Assembly (NCBI RefSeq): GCF_031764535.1
Contig: NZ_CP134499.1
Span: forward strand, 4,030,001-4,094,000
DNA from: Pseudomonas sp. SG20056
GTDB taxonomy: Bacteria; Pseudomonadota; Gammaproteobacteria; Pseudomonadales; Pseudomonadaceae
Direction: 5' to 3'
Length of the DNA stretch: 64,000 nt
The notes below the pieces were generated by a model. The model saw nothing but the letters and a program-made list of their open reading frames with translations, searched no databases and was not told the origin of the DNA. Positions 4,154 to 64,000 of the stretch are shown piece after piece; position 1 is the first letter of the stretch, and every line of letters starts with the position of its first letter. Made by a program: the position numbers and the translations under genes.

Positions 4154-11591
<7,438 letters not shown>

Positions 11592-56300: not shown

Positions 56301-57308
56301 ATGACCACGCCCTTCAAACCCGCCTGGTGGCTACCCGGCCCGCATCTGCAAACCCTGTGGAACCCGATGTGTCGCCAACCGGCGAAACTTGAGCGCACGC
56401 GCGAACGGTTGTGGCTGGAGGATGGCGACTTTCTCGATATGGACTGGCACGGCCCACACCAGGCCGACGCACCGCTGGTGTTGGTGCTACATGGTCTGAC
56501 CGGCTCATCCGACTCACTGTACGTACTGGGGCTGCAGCAGCAACTGGCAGCTCAGGGCTGGGCCAGCGTGGCGCTGAACTGGCGCGGCTGCTCCGGCGAG
56601 CCGAACCTGCTGGCCCGTGGTTACCACTCCGGCGCCAGCGAGGACCTGGCGGAAACCGTGCGCCACCTGCGCGCACAGCGGCCGATGGCGCCGCTGTATG
56701 CCGTGGGTTATTCGCTCGGCGGCAATGTGCTGCTCAAGTACCTCGGCGAAACGGGCGCAGACAGCCAGTTGCAAGGCGCGGTGGCGGTGTCAGTGCCGTT
56801 TCGTCTGGATCAGTGCGCCGACCGCATCGGCATGGGCTTTTCCAGGGTCTACCAGAGCCACTTTATGCGCGAGATGGTGGCCTACGTGAAGGATAAGCAG
56901 CGCCTGTTCGCCCACCGGGGCATGGCCGACCGGCTGTCTACCCTGGAGAAACTCGGTCCGCTGGACAACATGCGCACCTTCTGGGATTTCGACGGGCGCA
57001 TCACCGCGCCGCTGCATGGCTATGCCGATGCCGAGGACTACTACCGCCGCGCCTCCAGCCGCTACTTCCTCGGCCAGATCGAGACACCCACGCTGATTAT
57101 CCAGGCCGCCGACGACCCCTTCGTCTTCCCCCACAGCCTGCCCGAAGCCAGCGAGCTCTCACCCAGCATAGAATTCGAACTGCACGCCCACGGCGGCCAT
57201 GTCGGCTTTGTCGAAGGCAGCCTGGCTAAACCAGGCTATTACCTGGAACGGCGCATTCCGCAGTGGTTGGAATGGCAATTCAGCCATATGCCCGGCGCAG
57301 AAGACTGA
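56301..57308 (+). CDS. YheT-like alpha/beta hydrolase
   Basis: The 335-residue product belongs to the YheT/ABHD1-3 type: PAWWLPGPHLQTLWNP at the N-terminus, VLVLHGLTGSSDS (oxyanion region), nucleophile elbow GYSLGGNVLLKYLG, the acid in IQAADDPFVFP and the His in HGGHVGFVEG. Substrate is unknown; it may act on lipid or polyhydroxyalkanoate esters. By position it matches the hydrolase next to rsmD in P. aeruginosa. It marks the last backbone gene before the microcin-type cluster. Confidence 0.92.
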   Translation: MTTPFKPAWWLPGPHLQTLWNPMCRQPAKLERTRERLWLEDGDFLDMDWHGPHQADAPLVLVLHGLTGSSDSLYVLGLQQQLAAQGWASVALNWRGCSGEPNLLARGYHSGASEDLAETVRHLRAQRPMAPLYAVGYSLGGNVLLKYLGETGADSQLQGAVAVSVPFRLDQCADRIGMGFSRVYQSHFMREMVAYVKDKQRLFAHRGMADRLSTLEKLGPLDNMRTFWDFDGRITAPLHGYADAEDYYRRASSRYFLGQIETPTLIIQAADDPFVFPHSLPEASELSPSIEFELHAHGGHVGFVEGSLAKPGYYLERRIPQWLEWQFSHMPGAED

Positions 57309-57313
57309 ACAAC

Positions 57314-58633
57314 TCACTCGCTCAGTAGTGCGTTCACTTCACGTATATCCGCGTCACCTAACGAACCAGCCGCAGCTTTCAGGCGCAATAAGGACAGCAT
57401 AGTGTCGTAACGCGCTCGGGATAGTTGCTGCTGGGTATCACTGAGCTGACTCTGCACCTCTAGAACATCAATGCTGATGCGTACACCGACCTTGTAGCCA
57501 AGGCGATTAGAATCAACAGCAGACTGCGCCGAGCGCATGGCTGCCTCCAATGCCTGAATCTGCGCAATACCACCAGCAACACCCAACCAGGCTTCGCGAG
57601 CTGCAAAGGCCGCAGCTCGCCTGGCATCTTCTAACTCAGCTTCGGCCTGAATTTTTAACGACTGGGCTTCACGCACAGACGAACTGGTGCGACCGCCGCC
57701 GTATAAAGGCATGCTTAGACGCAATCCCACACTGGATGACTCACTCCGTTCGGTCCCCAGGCTGGGGCGCTCGTTCATATTCTGACTCGCCACCAAATCA
57801 AGCGTCGGTAGATGTTCGGCTTGGCGACTACGTACTTCATTACCGGCGATATACAGCGAAAGCTCCTGAGCTTGTACGCTGAAATTACGCTGTATAGCCG
57901 CCTCGACCCAATCCTCAACCCTATTCGGCTGCGGTACCTCAAGAACAATTCCGGGACGCAGCCTTAGCAAATGCTCAGGTTGTCGCCCCATCACACGGGC
58001 TAGGGCATGTCTAGCCAGCTCCAAGTCACTTTGGGCCTTGATGGTTTGCGCCTGCACTCTGTCAAAACTCGCCTGAGCCTCATGCACATCAGCGATGCTG
58101 ACATTGCCAATCTCAAAGCTCTTACGCGCACTGGCAAGTTGTTCTGCATCGGCGGCACGCAACTGCATAACAGCGCCCAATACATCCTCAGCATTAAGTA
58201 CGTTGAAGTAGGCCTCGGCCACCCGTAATACCAACTCCTGATAGGCGATGCTTTGGCGGCTAGCGGCCAGCGCTGTCAGCTGACGACCCTGCTGGTATTG
58301 CACCCAGTTTTGCCAGCGAAAAAGTGGCTGAGCGAGCTGGATGCTATACGTGCGATTCTGCTGCCGGTACTCAACATCCCCGCTCGCGACTTCATATTGG
58401 GTCTGGTTCCACGTGTTCTGCACATCCACCGACAGCTGCGGTAAAAGCCCCGCACGACGCTGTATATGCTGTTCAATACCGGCCTGGTACTGCGCCTGGG
58501 CCGCAGCAAATTGCGCATCATGCTGTAAGGCCTCGCGATAGGCCTGCACCAAATCGGTAGCCTGTAACCGCATACTAAAAGCACAACACAGCACAGCCAC
58601 GCCCAACCATCGCAACCGCTTTTTGCTCGACAT
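57314..58633 (-). CDS. TolC family outer-membrane channel protein
   Basis: The 439-residue product has a signal peptide (ends about residue 25) and two repeats of the TolC type: GIEQHIQRRAGLLPQLSVDVQ with RVAEAYFNVLNAEDVL, then NEVRSRQAEHLPTLDLVAS and LRLSMPLYGGGRTSSSVREA with YKVGVRISIDVLEVQSQL. The last segments include the Asp-rich entrance helix pattern. It overlaps the ABC exporter gene (TGATG), so it should form the outer-membrane exit of a type I secretion complex for the microcin-like peptide. It is the last gene of the leftward operon. Confidence 0.93.
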   Translation of the reverse strand: MSSKKRLRWLGVAVLCCAFSMRLQATDLVQAYREALQHDAQFAAAQAQYQAGIEQHIQRRAGLLPQLSVDVQNTWNQTQYEVASGDVEYRQQNRTYSIQLAQPLFRWQNWVQYQQGRQLTALAASRQSIAYQELVLRVAEAYFNVLNAEDVLGAVMQLRAADAEQLASARKSFEIGNVSIADVHEAQASFDRVQAQTIKAQSDLELARHALARVMGRQPEHLLRLRPGIVLEVPQPNRVEDWVEAAIQRNFSVQAQELSLYIAGNEVRSRQAEHLPTLDLVASQNMNERPSLGTERSESSSVGLRLSMPLYGGGRTSSSVREAQSLKIQAEAELEDARRAAAFAAREAWLGVAGGIAQIQALEAAMRSAQSAVDSNRLGYKVGVRISIDVLEVQSQLSDTQQQLSRARYDTMLSLLRLKAAAGSLGDADIREVNALLSE

Positions 58634-60720
58634 CAGGCACTGGCCTGCTTCTGATCAAGGCGCACGTCCTCGACTATCGAACCCTTGTCCAGGCAGATCA
58701 GGCGCTTGGCAAAGGCGATGGTTTCTCGTCGATGGGCAATAGTGATGCGGGTCATGGGAAGATGGTGCATGGCACCGACCACATGCTGCTCGCTGTGCAG
58801 ATCAAGATTGCTGGTAGCCTCATCCAACGCCAGGATCTTCGGCTGCTTGTACAGCGCACGTGCCAGCAACACACGTTGCCTCTGGCCACCGGAAAGGCCA
58901 CTGCCCATTTCCGCCACTAGGGTCTGATAGCCCATAGGCATACGCCCAATGGCCTTATGGATATGCGCTTTCCGTGCGGCATCCTCTACTCGCTCCTGAC
59001 ACGCCTGAGGGTCGAAACAGGCAATGTTTTCCGCAAGCGAGCCGGCCAATAGCTGATCTTCCTGCATTACCGCACCGACCAGGCCACGCAATGCCTCAGG
59101 CCCAAGCTGCCTGATGGGAATACCACCAACGCGGATCGCCCCTTCCGTGGGCTCCAACAGACCCAGCATCAACTTGAATAGAGTGGACTTGCCGCAACCC
59201 GAGCGCCCGACGATGGCCACCGCATCGCCCGGTTCAATGCTCAACGACAGGTTACGCAGCACCCAGGGCTCCCCCTCGGCATAGCGAAAAGACACATCCT
59301 TCAACTCGATACGCGGTTCAATACGCTCCAGATCAGTCTCCATGCCACTTTCCGGCTCGGTGGGCTCCAAAGCGATATCGGCCAGACGCTCAGCATGCAG
59401 CGAAAGCATCCTGATCTCGATGCCCAGGTCGATCAGTTTGCTTGCGCGGCCAGTGAACTGGCTCTTGTAGGCGATAAAGGCAAGCAGCATGCCAAGCGAC
59501 AGAGCCCCTTCCAGCACCGCCATGCCACCGACATACAGCAGCAACATGCCCTCAAGACCGAAAATCAGAGTATTAAAGCTGGCGAAGACCAACAGCATCT
59601 TCTGCGTGGCCACGTCACGGTTTTGCACATCAGCCATCAGGTTCTGCCAGGTCGCCAAACGCAGGGGCGTCGCGTTGAACAACTTGAGCGGCAATACCGC
59701 ACGGATGGTTTCCAAGAAATAGGAGTTTTCCTTGGCTGCCAGGACAATGCGCTCCTCCGAGGCATTGCGCAGCGGCTGGTAGAACGCCAAACGCAACAGG
59801 CCGTAAAGCGCCAAAGCAACCAGCACAATGCCGGTCAACGCCTTGCTGTAAAGAAGCATCATGCCCAGGGTGATCAGGGTCACCAGACCATCCAGCACCA
59901 CGGTAATGGCACCGTTGGTCAATACATTTCGGATGGCCCCCAAGGACTGAAAACGCGCAGTGATATCGCCCAGATGGCGCTTTTCAAAATAGGGAAAGGG
60001 CAAGCGCAGCAGATGGCTGAACAGATTGCCTGACCACTGCAAGGCCAGCTGCTGGTTCAGCCGCAGGTTCATCCAACCACGGGCCATACGCAGCACGAAG
60101 TCGATCAACATCAGCAGGCAGCCACCAAGCACCGCCAGCAAAAGCAGGTGATGATCCGCCGACACCAACGCACCATCCACCACCCACTGGGTCACCTGGG
60201 GCGACAGCAGCGCCACCACCTCCAACGCCAAAGCCAGCACAAAAATATTGCCCAGCGCGCGCTTGAGCCCCAGCACCCTGCCGGTCAGATCACGCAGACG
60301 CAAACGAGGTTTTTCCTGCGCGGGGCGAAAGGCCGCATTGGGCGTCAGCTCCAATGCCACACCGGTGAAATGCCGAGACGCTTCATCCAGCGCGATCACT
60401 TTGCGCCCCGTGGCTGGGTCGAGAATCACCAGCCGGTCACCGCGTACCTTTTCCAGCACCACGAAGTGGTTGAGGTTCCAGTGCAGGATGCAGGGCGTGC
60501 GCAGCTTGCATAGCTCATCCAGTTCCAGCCGCAACGGCCGGCAGGAAAACTCCAGCACCTGCGCATAGCGCATCAACTGCGCCAGGTTGGTGCCTTTAAT
60601 TGAAATGGAAAAGCGCCGGCGCAGAGTGGCCAAATCCAGATGCAAACCGTGGGCGGCAGCCACCATTACCAGGCAGGCCAAACCGCACTCCTGGCTTTCC
60701 GCTTGGAGCGTTACTCTCAT
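58633..60720 (-). CDS. Bacteriocin-type ABC exporter with N-terminal C39 peptidase
   Basis: The 695-residue product is a peptidase-containing ABC transporter that cuts double-glycine leaders while exporting peptides. The C39 domain (about 1-130) has its catalytic residues: C12 in QECGLAC, H85 in NLNHFVVLE and D101 in ILDPATG. Membrane helices span about 155-420. The ATPase shows Walker A GRSGCGKST, signature LSGGQRQRV, Walker B ILALDEATSNLD and switch His in TIAHRRE. It is coupled to the TolC gene and 37 bp from the JmjC gene. The natural substrate is the GG-leader peptide at 62279-62536. No HlyD-type fusion protein gene is present. Confidence 0.95.
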   Translation of the reverse strand: MRVTLQAESQECGLACLVMVAAAHGLHLDLATLRRRFSISIKGTNLAQLMRYAQVLEFSCRPLRLELDELCKLRTPCILHWNLNHFVVLEKVRGDRLVILDPATGRKVIALDEASRHFTGVALELTPNAAFRPAQEKPRLRLRDLTGRVLGLKRALGNIFVLALALEVVALLSPQVTQWVVDGALVSADHHLLLLAVLGGCLLMLIDFVLRMARGWMNLRLNQQLALQWSGNLFSHLLRLPFPYFEKRHLGDITARFQSLGAIRNVLTNGAITVVLDGLVTLITLGMMLLYSKALTGIVLVALALYGLLRLAFYQPLRNASEERIVLAAKENSYFLETIRAVLPLKLFNATPLRLATWQNLMADVQNRDVATQKMLLVFASFNTLIFGLEGMLLLYVGGMAVLEGALSLGMLLAFIAYKSQFTGRASKLIDLGIEIRMLSLHAERLADIALEPTEPESGMETDLERIEPRIELKDVSFRYAEGEPWVLRNLSLSIEPGDAVAIVGRSGCGKSTLFKLMLGLLEPTEGAIRVGGIPIRQLGPEALRGLVGAVMQEDQLLAGSLAENIACFDPQACQERVEDAARKAHIHKAIGRMPMGYQTLVAEMGSGLSGGQRQRVLLARALYKQPKILALDEATSNLDLHSEQHVVGAMHHLPMTRITIAHRRETIAFAKRLICLDKGSIVEDVRLDQKQASA

Positions 60721-60757
60721 TGAGGATTATTCGATTAGGTAAACGAGGGTTGGGTAT

Positions 60758-61912
60758 TCAGTGACGGAGCGCTTCAAGAACGTCCTGCCGGCACAGCTCA
60801 TGCACCAATACCCGCAGCTTGTCCGCATCGATATCGGCCAGCCTGCCGACCAACTCGCCCAGACTGATTGCGGGAGACTCCGCGATACAGCGGATCAACC
60901 GCACACCGGTTTCGTCCAGATTCAGTTTGGTGCCATTGGCGATCAGGTAATTATCGGCAAGACCATATGGCTTATTGGCGCTCAGGCGAATACGGGTACT
61001 GTCCGGAATAGTTCCCGTATTGGGATTGCCAAACAGTTCGACAGCCAAGGGCGACGCGACACGAGTTGCACCGATAAACTCATCCATAAAGCGCCGATAG
61101 TTGTCGGGATCATTGATAAATTCATCAATATACCGACCCACGGCTGCAATATTTTCCTTATCCGCTCCCCAAGCGCTGAGCGACTTTCTCGCCCCGATAA
61201 AACTCGGCAATTGACGAAATGCCCACTCCATATAATCGGTGGTATAGGCCGGAAAGGTCCCCACAGCCAGATGAAAAGTCTCCTCACCAATCGGCAACGG
61301 ATTATGCCACCAGCCGCGCGGCAGATAGAAGACATCGCCCGCCTCCAGAATAAAGTCCATATAGGGCTCTTTCGGACAGGGGTATAATTGCTCGACATCC
61401 TTACTTTGCTGCATATACAGAGGCGACTCGAACGACGGCTCGTAAACGATCCAGCGTTTGCGACCTATCAACTGAATAACGAATACATCACGGGTATCCC
61501 AATGCGCGCGGAATGAATCACGCTCGCCAAAGGCAGCATAGGCACTGGTTACCGTCTGCCGCCCGGTAAACTCAGCGATTTGCCTGGCCAGCGCATCCAC
61601 CTTTGGCTCGTTCGCAAGCTTATTGGCGATAAGCGTGGCACCATTTTTCAGGTAGTCGTAGACCACCGGCTTGATCAGACGGTGCCGCAGAGTGCCTATA
61701 TCTAGATAGCTTTCGACATATTCTTTTTTGGGGCGGATACCGTCGCAGGACAACTTAAAATCATTGGAAAAAACATTAGCCCTTTCAAATATTTCATTGG
61801 CGTCACCCCAAGCAAAATCACCTACATCCACAGCCCCCTTTAGAAGAAACGGCTTAACCTCTTCGTATTGGCTAGAAAAAACATCGCCAGAAAAATCAAA
61901 TCGAATCATCAT
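60758..61912 (-). CDS. JmjC-type Fe(II)/2-oxoglutarate oxygenase (ribosomal-oxygenase-like)
   Basis: The 384-residue product has a JmjC/cupin core with the iron triad H137-x-D139 (RAHWDTRDVFVIQ) and H203 (YLPRGWWHNP). The segment IGRKRWIVYEP between them is typical of the bacterial ribosomal oxygenase (YcfD/ROX) group. After the core there is a helical dimerisation-like part and a C-terminal winged-helix-like domain (about 310-384), again as in ROX proteins. Those enzymes hydroxylate side chains of ribosomal proteins; here it lies between a GG-leader peptide gene and its exporter, so I infer hydroxylation of the peptide. Start ATG 61912 or 61909. A terminator-like hairpin separates it from the upstream small gene. 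Confidence 0.85.
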   Translation of the reverse strand: MMIRFDFSGDVFSSQYEEVKPFLLKGAVDVGDFAWGDANEIFERANVFSNDFKLSCDGIRPKKEYVESYLDIGTLRHRLIKPVVYDYLKNGATLIANKLANEPKVDALARQIAEFTGRQTVTSAYAAFGERDSFRAHWDTRDVFVIQLIGRKRWIVYEPSFESPLYMQQSKDVEQLYPCPKEPYMDFILEAGDVFYLPRGWWHNPLPIGEETFHLAVGTFPAYTTDYMEWAFRQLPSFIGARKSLSAWGADKENIAAVGRYIDEFINDPDNYRRFMDEFIGATRVASPLAVELFGNPNTGTIPDSTRIRLSANKPYGLADNYLIANGTKLNLDETGVRLIRCIAESPAISLGELVGRLADIDADKLRVLVHELCRQDVLEALRH

Positions 61913-61993
61913 TAACCCCCAAATACTATTTTTATATCTACCCCAACCAAACTAACACCAATAATCCTGACAACTAAAAATCACACAACCATC

Positions 61994-62026
61994 ATAAAAA
62001 TGCGCCCTACAGATGCAAGGCGCTTG
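61994..62026 (-). terminator. Terminator-like hairpin between the small-protein gene and the JmjC gene
   Basis: Read leftward, AAGCGCCT, a loop and AGGGCGCATTTTTAT form a stem with one bulge and a T-rich tail. It would make precursor plus small protein an abundant short transcript, with read-through to the oxygenase and exporter genes. Confidence 0.55.
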
Positions 62027-62046
62027 ATCAAGTCAAACTGAAGTCC

Positions 62047-62223
62047 TTAGATAATTTCTCTACTCAAAAAAGCACAAACACCTGCGACTATAGCGCCTGA
62101 TACTGCAAGCCAAAACCCAAGACCAGCCGCTTCCTTTGACCTAGAGAAACAGCCAAGCTTAACTGCAAAAATAGAAAGCACAACAACACCAGCACCAACT
62201 ATAAACAGCGACATCGACATCAT
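62047..62223 (-). CDS. Small two-helix membrane protein, candidate immunity protein
   Basis: This 58-codon frame starts with ATG at 62221-62223 and ends with TAA at 62047-62049. It encodes a protein with two hydrophobic segments (LFIVGAGVVVLSIFAV and LGFWLAVSGAIVAGVCAFL) separated by a short basic loop (KLGCFSRSKEAAG). Size, two-helix topology and position right after the precursor gene (55 bp) are typical of class II microcin and bacteriocin immunity proteins, but the sequence itself matches nothing I recognise. The ribosome binding site is weak (GGTGAT); M3 is an alternative start. I consider it a real gene because it fills the gap without shadowing another gene. Confidence 0.6.
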   Translation of the reverse strand: MMSMSLFIVGAGVVVLSIFAVKLGCFSRSKEAAGLGFWLAVSGAIVAGVCAFLSREII

Positions 62224-62278
62224 ATTTAAATCACCGTAAACAACCAGAGAAGCCCTTTAACTTGTCTCAAAACGAAAT

Positions 62279-62536
62279 CTAATTGTAGTTAGTACCATCG
62301 CAGTTAGTACCATCGTAGTTAGTACCATCTTTGAATGCATCCCCTTCAATAAGCCCATCACCAATGGCTACCCCCCCTGTATATGCCAAAGCACCAGCTG
62401 CGCCCAACCCTACCAATCCGACTGGTGTTGAGACAATAGCAACAGAAAGGGCTACGCTAGCTAAACCCGCACCAACCTCACCCCAATCAGCCCCACCAGA
62501 AACAACCTCCAAATCAACAAGGCTCAGCTCTCTCAT
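62279..62536 (-). CDS. Double-glycine-leader microcin/bacteriocin-type precursor peptide
   Basis: The 85-residue product begins MRELSLVDLEVVSGG, a classic double-glycine leader (15 residues) for C39-peptidase exporters. The 70-residue core starts ADWGEVGAG, is rich in Gly, Ala and Val with GxxxG-like spacing (a probable membrane-active helix pair, VGLVGLGAAGALAYTGG), and ends with three tandem units DGTNY, DGTNC, DGTNY then Asn. I chose the ATG at 62536 because GGAG lies 6 nt upstream; an ATG at 62548 adds MEIV. Only one Cys is present, so a disulfide within one chain is not possible. Confidence 0.85.
   Translation of the reverse strand: MRELSLVDLEVVSGGADWGEVGAGLASVALSVAIVSTPVGLVGLGAAGALAYTGGVAIGDGLIEGDAFKDGTNYDGTNCDGTNYN
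62285..62329. repeat. Three 15-bp tandem repeats in the precursor gene tail
   Basis: Three copies of GTAGTTAGTACCATC (the middle copy has one change, GTAG to GCAG) encode the DGTN(Y/C) units at the C-terminus of the precursor peptide, read on the minus strand. Confidence 0.97.
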
Positions 62537-62912
62537 AACTATCTCCAATTAAAAAATAAATCCCAATACATTAACAGCACAGAAAACCAAGATCACACTT
62601 CACTGCAACCCAAGCTTTAACGATGCACAATAAAATTCTGCCACATTTATACTTAAACTCCACCCTATATCTGTAGGGGGGGGGGGGGGGGGGGGGGGGG
62701 GGATATGCCAATAAAAACGCCCTTAACACCAAGAGCCACTTAAAAATTAAAATTACTACCCTCTAAGACCCTGAGGTGAATTGCAAATCTATATACACAG
62801 AATGACCAACCTAAACATACAAAACAGCCAAACACATAATCCAACTACAGAAATTAACATACTAAAACACTTACCCTATCTCACCACACCCAACATCATC
62901 ATGCGCGAATAG
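62537..62912. other. AT-rich non-coding region upstream of the precursor gene
   Basis: 376 bp between the M16 remnant and the precursor gene, with base composition clearly more AT-rich than the chromosomal backbone. It must contain the leftward promoter of the microcin-type operon. It holds the 27-nt G tract. Only very short frames occur (36 codons rightward from 62802, 23 codons leftward from 62860), which I do not call. Confidence 0.6.
62676..62702. repeat. 27-nt homopolymeric G tract
   Basis: An unbroken run of 27 G on the plus strand, about 140 bp upstream of the precursor start (poly-C in the sense of that operon). It is far longer than expected by chance in AT-rich DNA. It is either a hypermutable contingency tract in the promoter region or an assembly/sequencing artefact. 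Confidence 0.9.
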
Positions 62913-64000
62913 TTAGACGGCGCTACTCCCAAGCCCCTCTACATCAGCCAGCACTTCAACGAGGTTATCCAAACTAAAGTAACGCAGCATCACTGCATTA
63001 ACTTGCTCGACAGCTACCGCCGCGAATGCATTATTACGCTCCACCCAAGACTGCATGGTGAGGCCTTCATATAGCCGGCGCGGCAACCATGAAAGAACAC
63101 TCTGCTCCTGGGCAACGGTCAGCTGCCGCTCATGCAGAATGGTCTGCTTGGCGCAGTCCAGTTCTTGCTCGGTAATACCGCCCTCAATTAACCTTTGCAG
63201 CTCTTCCTTGATCATGCCAGCAACTCTGGGACCATCGCCCAGAGGGTAGCTGGCTTGAATCATCAGCCAACTGGCGTCATCGAAGGTGGCAATTTTCATA
63301 GAGGACTTGATGCCATAAGTAAGACCCTCCTGCTCGCGCACACATCTGCTCAAGCGAGAGACCATCTGATTACGCCCCAGCAAGTGCTCGGCTATATATA
63401 CAGGGCGGCGCTATCGACCTTCTTGCTGTTGACCTGATAGTGCAACTGACCAATGTAGACGCCGGTCTGCTCGGCATTAGCCTTGCCATGGATAGGCGCC
63501 GCTCGCCTGCCCTGGCACAACCAGCGCTTGGTACAGCCGACCGCGGGGTTCGCCAGCCAACATGTCAGGCAATGCTGCCAGCGCAATATTGGCCGGACTC
63601 GGAGGCACCTGGCAGCGGATAAGCGAGCGCCAGCCACTCGGTGCTGCCAAGTTTGAGTTGGGTGGTTACTGGTTTATCCAGCACGGGAACAGCAGGTAGC
63701 CGTTTTTTCTCGGCGCCGGCCACCACTACCAAAGGGGCAAAATGTTGCTCGATTGCGGCCGGCGTTAGCTGGCTCTCGAATTTGCCGGTAATCACGATTA
63801 CCGCATTGTCGGGGCGATAGTGCTCCCGGTAGAACGCACGCAACTGTTCCACGCCGATATTCGTCAGCCCCCCCCGCGAAACCAGCACGGGCCGGCCAAA
63901 GCCCTGCCCCGGCGTGGCGGCAGCAAACATCTGCTGCCCTAATGCACCAAGCGGATTGTCCTGGGCCAGCTCCAGCTCACGCAATACCACTTCGACTTCG
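62913..64000 (-). pseudogene. Frameshifted M16 peptidase gene (5' end outside window)
   Basis: From the right edge leftward the first frame reads M16-type sequence (VLRELELAQDNPLG, GGLTNIGVEQLRAFYREHYRPDNAVIVITGKF split over the domain) to a stop at 63565. Homology then passes to a second frame (ALAALPDMLAGEPRGRLYQALVV), a third frame (AAPIHGKANAEQTGVYIGQLHYQ) and a fourth segment (AEHLLGRNQMVSRLSR, then REQEGLTYGIKSS and on to a normal C-terminus at 62913). Three frameshifts near 63600, 63490 and 63395 (the last in a TATATATA run) disrupt it. The zinc-site half is outside the window. It is unrelated in position to the intact M16 pair at 52679-55508. Confidence 0.8.

Follow-up and report, generated by a model that had tools for sequence, protein, structure and literature searches.

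The locus described here raises the question of why an operon that appears to export a small peptide also encodes a JmjC-type 2-oxoglutarate oxygenase. The operon lies in a window of 64,000 nucleotides from Pseudomonas sp. SG20056 (contig NZ_CP134499.1, positions 4,030,001 to 4,094,000). Comparison of sequences across related loci, given L numbers below, suggests that the operon is probably of the class II microcin type, with a dedicated ROX-type JmjC enzyme that would modify a G-x-[N/D]-Y tail at the C-terminus of a precursor with a double-glycine (GG) leader.

Gene content of the operon

The operon occupies 57314-62536 on the minus strand, where a leftward row of genes encodes the GG-leader precursor, a 58-aa two-TM protein, the JmjC protein, a C39-ABC exporter and a TolC protein. 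The initial annotation had listed these five ORFs, and their strand and positions hold. The features of the locus are as follows:

57314..58633, minus strand: TolC-family outer membrane protein, 439 aa (OEP, E 2.9e-54; TIGR01844, 306 bits, cut-off 225)
58633..60720, minus strand: C39-peptidase ABC exporter (PCAT), 695 aa (Pfam Peptidase_C39, E 9.8e-34; ABC_membrane; ABC_tran)
60758..61912, minus strand: ROX-type JmjC 2-oxoglutarate oxygenase, 384 aa (Pfam JmjC_2, E 4.7e-29; PDB profile search; AF2/fold searches; alignment)
62047..62223, minus strand: 58-aa two-TM protein, candidate immunity protein (two hydrophobic segments; phmmer)
62279..62536, minus strand: GG-leader microcin-like precursor, 85 aa from ATG, leader MRELSLVDLEVVSGG
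62282..62332, minus strand: C-terminal tail of the precursor, three G-T-N-[Y/C] units (DGTNY DGTNC DGTNYN), proposed oxygenase target (from sequence)
62676..62702, no strand: homopolymer run of 27 bases (plus strand G, minus strand C), ~140 bp upstream of the precursor ATG
62913..64000, continuing past the window, minus strand: remnant of a two-lobed M16 peptidase (tblastn with the 916-aa L005 homologue; Pfam Peptidase_M16_C on fragments)

The genes had also been described as tightly spaced, which is true of the TolC and ABC genes (1-base overlap), the ABC and JmjC genes (37 bp) and the 58-aa and precursor genes (55 bp), but not of the JmjC and 58-aa genes, which are 134 bp apart. A terminator-like hairpin sits within this gap (62023-62002) and counts against the reading above, though weakly, because the region contains two such sites against a shuffle mean of 1.4. 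The cluster is more than a chance arrangement, since other genera have this gene set too.

Two neighbouring elements had been overlooked. An HlyD-type adaptor is encoded ~0.8 kb past the right end of the window (stretch L013, 9836-11128; HlyD_3, E 2.3e-14), so that a C39 PCAT, an HlyD adaptor and a TolC protein, as expected of a class II microcin system, are all encoded nearby. The second element, the M16 remnant, consists of frame-broken pieces with an internal gap at about residues 328-720 of the L005 homologue. A required role for this peptidase is unsupported, as it is full-length only in five distinct loci (L004, L005, L006/L025, L007 and L008/L026), partial or broken in the window's own locus and L012, and not found in the fetched stretches of L009-L011, L027-L033, L036 and L037. 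Rfam matched nothing in 57000-64000, and PADLOC gave nothing meaningful, its best E of 0.03 being for the precursor.

The precursor is of the class II microcin kind, small (85 aa) and with a double-glycine-type leader (MRELSLVDLEVVSGG). Its predicted mature part is 70 aa, 6.7 kDa and 21% Gly, and its match to Pfam MccV (E 0.02) is below the cut-off. The C-terminus ends in DGTNYDGTNCDGTNYN, which contains the G-x-[N/D]-Y motif that the initial annotation missed.

We reject a reading of the 58-residue protein as a second peptide because it has no GG leader; a candidate immunity protein is the better reading, with a two-TM relative encoded beside the one other precursor that has a related core. 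That relative, an ORF next to the related-core precursor of L012, gives a phmmer E of 4.5e-7 (17-sequence set; weak evidence). A two-TM small ORF lies nearby in 14 of 18 loci, a count made without a chance control, and some track the core family. A single small-ORF match links different core families (L005-L028, 2e-4), and in L012 the ORF at 5926 resembles the small ORFs of L004/L029, with no core match for its nearest precursor. E-values for cores and small ORFs were obtained on very small sets of sequences rich in Gly or hydrophobic residues and are hence weak evidence. Taken on these sequences, the 58-aa protein is a probable immunity protein.

The oxygenase and the precursor tail

The HxD...H triad of the JmjC protein, reported at the outset as intact, is H137/D139/H203 by alignment and is kept in 19/19 members, with JmjC_2 matched in all 18 members scanned. 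The predicted structure has the ROX fold, the whole model being closest to YcfD, NO66 and MINA53 (Z 19.5-19.6; fold search). The protein shares with these enzymes the JmjC_2 domain, HxD...H, the dimerisation helices and a winged helix, but is only 15-21% identical to them, and its genomic partner is a secreted peptide, not a ribosomal one. Within its own genome a second JmjC_2 protein scores better against the family (2.0e-43 vs 1.3e-29), so the cluster enzyme is probably not the housekeeping ribosomal enzyme.

In the AF2 model, residues ~293-384 form a winged helix with the bbb-aaa order of strands and helices seen in RREs. This domain scores against the RREs of MibB (Z 9.3), TigE (9.2), TbiB1 (8.0) and PqqD (7.3), while other winged helices score alike (GATOR1, 8.7; MINA53, 7.9), and no Foldseek match was found at E<=0.001. 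Pfam ROXA-like_wH matches 8/18 members at E<=0.01, with the window's own member below the cut-off. JmjC-RRE fusions are noted in the accessible portion of PMC12710340.

A called GG precursor with G-x-[N/D]-Y in its last 20 residues was found at 17 of 19 distinct JmjC loci, compared with 0 of 11 control loci having a called GG precursor (from 20 related exporter loci in JmjC-less genomes, 9 without a call). The association has a Fisher p of 3.5e-7 at the locus level, uncorrected for relatedness; the JmjC loci are mutually related, especially the window's own, L004 and L005, and the control loci are all Pseudomonadaceae. Thus the condition set initially against the modification reading, that oxygenase homologues never occur close to GG-leader peptides, was put to the test and does not hold.

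Several loci need a word on how they were counted. L025, L026 and L034 were taken, by matching sequence positions, to be the same loci as L006, L008 and L007 and were not counted twice. L035, with a truncated JmjC and no tail, is in neither group (as a case, the count becomes 17/20); it stood among the controls of an earlier motif count, which alone included L002 and L003 (the own genome's other C39 matches). A single spurious 52-aa motif match for L051 in that count disappeared under a stricter leader rule. Acinetobacter records apart from L036 were left out of the locus count. The background figure for the tail, 5/5646, is not purely one of ORF ends, because open stretches were cut at 140 residues. 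At the DNA level, the pattern GT[ND]YN-TAR had three matches in 256 Pseudomonadaceae genomes, all of them JmjC-cluster precursors, with 13 for a reversed-pattern control.

The C39 exporter adjoins the JmjC gene in 17/19 loci, and all 10 JmjC-bearing genomes among 398 also have a related PCAT. Where the JmjC and exporter trees disagree (L032 and L007), both precursor tails resemble those of JmjC relatives. Counting against the association, tail-less second small GG ORFs are present in L008, L011 and L037, and the second precursor of L012, with NDY...GTPY, falls outside the strict motif. No relative was found in viral contigs by tblastn. Among plasmid relatives, 15/26 records are from Streptomyces, those listed at 26-30% identity.

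Cores differ among loci and the JmjC protein does not track them: the window's locus and L004 have JmjC proteins that are 91% identical and precursor cores that are unrelated. Of the letters in the tail repeats, Tyr varies least, and an [N/D]Y pair is found in the tail of 18/18 aligned precursors. Judged from these alignments, the tail is a portable module common to otherwise unrelated cores. Its reach seems to extend further in Herbaspirillum (L010), which appears to have placed the tail on another protein. There a gene that stops 10 bp short of the JmjC start codes for a 262-aa non-microcin protein with the end ADGTDYHAH, no GG precursor was called at the locus, and the ABC protein of the adjoining T1SS lacks a Peptidase_C39 match; L010 also has one antisense chance tail.

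The initial proposal of peptide modification by the oxygenase ahead of export has gained comparative evidence for a JmjC-precursor partnership centred on the tail, and the modification itself is what we infer from it. The Fe(II)/2-oxoglutarate oxygenase would modify the tail in the cytoplasm, most likely by hydroxylation, after which the C39 domain would remove the leader and PCAT-HlyD-TolC would export the peptide. Since the tail is borne by unrelated cores, its role is probably in a step that they all share, most plausibly outer-membrane binding or entry at the target. A precedent of a kind is BipG, a gamma-ornithine hydroxylase described in the accessible portion of PMC12707348 as a JmjC enzyme that hydroxylates ornithine in the core of the ribosomal biphenomycin peptide. 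The likeness is drawn from the published description, and the BipG product differs in being a short macrocyclic RiPP with other partner enzymes. Among the matches listed in open-access titles and abstracts, none described modification of a class II microcin by a JmjC enzyme.

Described relatives and other roles for the JmjC protein

The initial annotation knew of no described microcin system built this way, which no longer stands. The mcaABCD genes of A. baumannii ATCC 17978 (Mcc17978) encode a leader-peptide microcin, a cupin-like protein, an HlyD protein and a SunT-type PCAT, and the GG/GA precursor, cupin/JmjC, HlyD and PCAT of that published description all have counterparts here (PMC10333792, accessible portion). 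The comparison draws on the published gene set and plasmid relatives. One such Acinetobacter relative, L036, has a JmjC protein 39.7% identical to the window's and a precursor ending in GNDYCEDGGNY; it is not identical to the ATCC 17978 locus, with GA at residues 14-15 vs 15-16 (PMC10333792), and neither TolC nor M16 was found in its stretch.

In Moraxella catarrhalis, plasmid pLQ510 (mcbABCI) has a GG peptide, McbC, with proven killing, an HlyD protein (McbA), a PCAT (McbB) and an immunity gene (PMC2761928, accessible portion), and we find a JmjC fragment directly upstream. This fragment matches only residues 21-268 of the window's JmjC protein, with a separate short ORF after it. The G-x-[ND]-Y tail is missing from McbC, although its gene lies beside the truncated JmjC, which counts against the tail-modification reading. 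The gonococcal nap island is a different locus as far as the accessible portion of PMC11798529 describes it, which names napR, napA-C, napI, napH, napP and napF but no JmjC gene.

The authors of the Mcc17978 study proposed the cupin as an immunity protein and identified the catecholate transporters Fiu/PiuA as receptors; in its accessible portion the cupin is called neither JmjC nor oxygenase and modifications are left open (PMC10333792). A JmjC protein that protects the producer of an unmodified peptide would explain why plasmid-borne mcaB alone protected a delta-mcc strain (PMC10333792), and the JmjC gene is inherited with the precursor rather than the exporter, a linkage of adjacent genes that would follow from immunity too. 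We nevertheless consider this role unlikely. A core-specific immunity protein would not be expected to stay 91% identical beside unrelated cores, as between the window's locus and L004; the two-TM ORFs, some tracking core family, are alternative candidates; the catalytic triad is kept in all 19 members; and in 2/8 Acinetobacter plasmid records the JmjC gene is split by ISAba10, yet the precursor, HlyD and PCAT genes remain. A JmjC protein that mainly recognises the tail, as a chaperone, export gate or neutraliser with catalysis secondary, would make both specificity and protection real and suit both the tail association and the protection result; it is quite unlikely, as the conserved iron triad is unexpected for a pure binder. 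A RoxA paralogue that is only a passenger, with a ribosomal or another host protein as its substrate and a coincidental neighbourhood, would suit the closest folds but is strongly disfavoured by the adjoining exporters, the PCAT co-occurrence, the tail association and the genome's other JmjC_2 protein.

Iron, uptake and significance

Class IIb microcins of the MccE492/MccH47 type have a swappable core and a shared, modified C-terminal part used at catecholate receptors. The tail-modification reading gives a similar plan, a swappable core with a shared C-terminal part, but the enzyme encoded beside the precursor is a JmjC oxygenase. Weak matches to NF051486 E492_microcin were found for 2/18 precursors (best E 0.0042), and the C-terminus here, DGTNYDGTNCDGTNYN, is not the Ser-rich siderophore-attachment end that carries a salmochelin-type siderophore in class IIb. 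No Fur-box, as would be expected upstream of the microcin gene in an mcaABCD-type operon, was matched in the window with up to three mismatches to the consensus. The upstream region of the window's precursor scored 12/19, no better than shuffles, and scores above shuffles were found in 2/17 precursor upstream regions, L005 (14/19; 0/60 shuffles) and L006 (13/19; ~2/60), with L036 not above them. Therefore, the link to iron rests on the Mcc17978 paper and not on these sequences.

A tentative and rather doubtful extension would make the tail a ribosomally encoded mimic of a siderophore, carrying exchangeable cores through catecholate TonB-dependent receptors such as Fiu/PiuA. The JmjC enzyme would then create iron-ligating residues (beta-hydroxy-Asp/Asn or hydroxylated Tyr) in the G-x-[N/D]-Y repeats, and the cores carried into competitors would include the larger Herbaspirillum protein.

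The usual description of class II microcins has them unmodified or, for class IIb, siderophore-carrying. Pairing a dedicated oxygenase with a portable tail would bring a further kind of post-translational modification to this class, and the tail would be a mark by which more such peptides could be recognised. The pairing would also offer an alternative explanation for the Acinetobacter "cupin immunity" result. If the tail were a siderophore mimic, class II microcins would be armed in a third way, alongside the unmodified (IIa) and siderophore-conjugated (IIb) forms. Should it act as a receptor ligand, it would amount to an uptake tag encoded in the gene, one with which other antibacterial proteins might be fitted.

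The precursor-oxygenase-exporter cluster and its relatives

The leftward row of five genes described in the initial annotation, from the precursor to the TolC protein, was found as described, while an HlyD adaptor, the remains of an M16 peptidase gene, and a C-terminal repeat of the precursor had been overlooked. The window (positions 4030001-4094000) lies in a genome of a single 4.48 Mb contig, and the cluster is arranged as follows:

Leftward from 62536, in this order: GG-leader precursor, 58-aa ORF, JmjC (a ROX-type 2-oxoglutarate oxygenase), C39-peptidase ABC exporter (PCAT), TolC protein
62676-62702, G on the plus and C on the minus strand: homopolymer of 27 bases, ~140 bp upstream of the precursor
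62913-64000 and onward (7913-9533 of L013, the same locus extended past the window end): decayed M16 peptidase gene, between HlyD and the precursor
~0.8 kb past the right end of the window: HlyD adaptor

The M16 pieces lie in differing frames and match an intact homolog of 916 aa at residues 1-289, 289-327, 721-760, and 758-913, whereas the gene is full-length in five related loci (L004, L005, L006, L007, and L008). C/G runs in the other 16 JmjC loci that were scanned reach at most 8 bases, compared to 27 here, and it is possible that the homopolymer varies promoter spacing in a phase-variable manner. A search with a Fur consensus found no box in the window or upstream of the precursor. Elsewhere, the genome has two more C39 peptidase matches, at G000:C1:2007020-2007427 (L002, a 258-aa frame) and 1970542-1970889 (L003).

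Scanning genome contigs with the JmjC protein gave nine loci (L004-L012). Whole-genome searches found JmjC in 10 of 398 family genomes (E<=1e-25), in 2 of 390 genomes of the order sample (this genome and one other), and in 1 of 369 of the class sample (this genome only), while at E<=1e-40 two further genome sets gave 1/163 and 1/18, both previously found. Plasmid tblastn added Acinetobacter, one gonococcal record, and Moraxella pLQ510. After de-duplication, 19 JmjC loci were used. A C39 exporter is near JmjC in 17 of these, the exceptions being L009 and L010, and HlyD was found in all except L009 and L033, the contig of which starts at the JmjC gene.

Several relatives are rearranged or degraded. 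In Burkholderia L009, no C39 exporter was found in the stretch examined, and partial ABC-2-type permease ORF copies (7332-7545 and 9815-11318) flank the precursor and JmjC genes, an arrangement that looks like an insertion of these two genes or their duplication along with the target. In an A. baumannii plasmid (NZ_CP017657.1, L058 5745-11582), ISAba10 interrupts JmjC while the precursor, HlyD, and PCAT are retained, and the same element lies under the JmjC match of a second record (NZ_CP017649.1). The N. gonorrhoeae locus (NZ_CP119142.1, filed as a plasmid with a size of 2.17 Mb; L037 9001-15131) has an intact JmjC, an adjoining tail-bearing precursor with a broken frame, HlyD, and a PCAT that is also broken. 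The system is decaying here, and the locus appears to differ from the gonococcal nap island described in the literature. On pLQ510, a truncated JmjC gene (L035 39-1120) lies upstream of mcbABCI, a proven bacteriocin operon, and the word "cupin" is absent from the text of the 2009 pLQ510 paper (PMC2761928).

The C-terminal tail and its association with JmjC

The GG precursors at JmjC loci end in a G-x-[N/D]-Y motif, frequently in two copies. The tail is DGTNYDGTNCDGTNYN in the precursor studied here, PSGTNYN in L004, SGTDYNNAAGTNYN in L006, SGTDYADGTDY in L011, DGSDYGDGTNY in L032, and GNDYCEDGGNY in L036. Under a single leader rule, a GG ORF bearing the motif within its last 20 residues was called in 17 of the 19 JmjC loci, leaving L010 and the gonococcal L037, where the precursor frame is broken and DGTDYC is found in another frame. 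The controls were 20 loci from JmjC-less family genomes, with exporter relatives at 39-51% identity; a GG ORF was called in 11, none of which has the motif (0/11). The difference is marked by locus (Fisher p 3.5e-7) and by ORF (17/25 vs. 0/14, p 2.5e-5), both computed without regard to kinship. Independently of this comparison, the DNA pattern GT[ND]YN-TAR gave three matches in 256 family genomes, each a JmjC-cluster precursor (this genome, G004, and G006), and the reversed pattern 13; JmjC occurs in seven of the 256, so that this narrow pattern overlooks the other four. On these sequence comparisons, the tail is tightly associated with JmjC.

Herbaspirillum L010 carries the tail on other cargo. 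No GG precursor was called there, and the gene ending 10 bp ahead of the JmjC start encodes a 262-aa protein with the C-terminal end FGSFADGTDYHAH. This protein has no Pfam match, and its residues 27-129 are 35.6% identical to a Burkholderia ambifaria protein annotated as calcium-binding. Upstream is an HlyB/HlyD-type secretion pair that gave no C39 match. On this one case, the tail seems to be portable and tied neither to GG leaders nor to C39 exporters. The gene order (L010 6028-9161) is two related small genes, the cargo with its DGTDYHAH tail, and JmjC. One small gene is weakly DUF5625-like (E 0.056), and in B. ambifaria pBMC401 DUF5625 precedes a calcium-binding protein that has the cargo's front domain. 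Small gene(s) and cargo are possibly an effector/immunity pair.

The oxygenase, the precursor cores, and immunity

H137, D139, and H203 are kept in 19/19 JmjC proteins. Profile searches place JmjC with the ROX oxygenases (YcfD, E 1.3e-12; NO66, 2.2e-12), as does a fold search with its model (pLDDT 79.9; Z = 19.6 for NO66, 19.6 for YcfD, and 19.5 for MINA53). The genome also encodes a second, higher-scoring JmjC_2 protein. The isolated C-terminal domain (model pLDDT 85.8) gave VIA-align Z scores of 9.3 for MibB, 9.2 for TigE, 8.9 for TbtB, 8.9 for NisB, 8.0 for TbiB1, and 7.3 for PqqD, and also 9.1 for Rv2067c, 8.7 for GATOR1, and 7.9 for MINA53; Foldseek gave no match at E<=0.001. The ranges matched in MibB, NisB, and TbtB are presumably the RiPP recognition elements (RREs) of those proteins. 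The modeled strand/helix order is bbb-aaa, by which RREs are defined in PMC12710340; that paper also mentions fusions of JmjC with an RRE in fish and algae, as well as JmjC homologs of bacteria in RiPP-like contexts. The domain is suggestive of an RRE, with other winged helices scoring about as high.

Without leader and tail, the precursors form three related groups and five singletons: core group I (this precursor and L012b), a group of L004, L005, L007, and L029, and core group III (L006, L008, L027, L028, L030, L031, and L033). The core studied here differs from that of L004, although the two loci share 91% identity in JmjC and 99% in the exporter; JmjC thus does not track core type. The trees of JmjC and exporter conflict at two loci. 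For L032, the exporter clusters with L027 (98/92) and the JmjC with L011, L012, and L036 (100/99). The exporter of L007 shares 83-84% identity with L011/L012 and 72-76% with most others, with modest support for its placement (82/84), and its JmjC lies on the opposite side of the tree. By eye, both tails resemble those of their JmjC relatives, an agreement that also fits simple linkage because the genes adjoin.

Small two-TM ORFs lie near JmjC in 14 of 18 loci checked, a count without chance control. The 58-aa protein is related to the ORF beside the sole other core-I precursor (phmmer 4.5e-7, 17-sequence set), and those of L008, L027, L028, and L031 (core III) are one family. This pattern fits dedicated, core-specific immunity proteins. 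Against this, in Acinetobacter Mcc17978 the gene for the cupin, the counterpart of JmjC, is reported to have given protection on its own (PMC10333792); in favor of separate immunity, ISAba10 splits the JmjC gene on two Acinetobacter plasmid records that still carry precursor, HlyD, and PCAT.

Proposed mechanism and relation to mcaABCD

After translation, JmjC would modify the precursor tail, most likely via hydroxylation, perhaps with its winged helix recognizing the leader; C39 would then cut behind GG, and export would proceed through PCAT-HlyD-TolC. As the tail is common to different cores, it should serve a common step. Since Mcc17978 enters via Fiu and PiuA (PMC10333792), receptor binding is the leading guess for this step. 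Unmodified microcins of class IIa, MccV among them, also depend on a catecholate receptor, and receptor use is therefore no proof of a siderophore mimic. Cir is named in the title of PMC12511343.

The gene set is that of Acinetobacter mcaABCD, the microcin of which was shown to be antibacterial in Acinetobacter (PMC10333792), and this kind of system is therefore already known. As far as these results show, the following is added: the cupin is recognized as a ROX-type oxygenase whose end is RRE-like, a portable tail is tightly associated with JmjC, the cores are modular and accompanied by candidate immunity ORFs of their own, and Herbaspirillum has a tail-bearing cargo.
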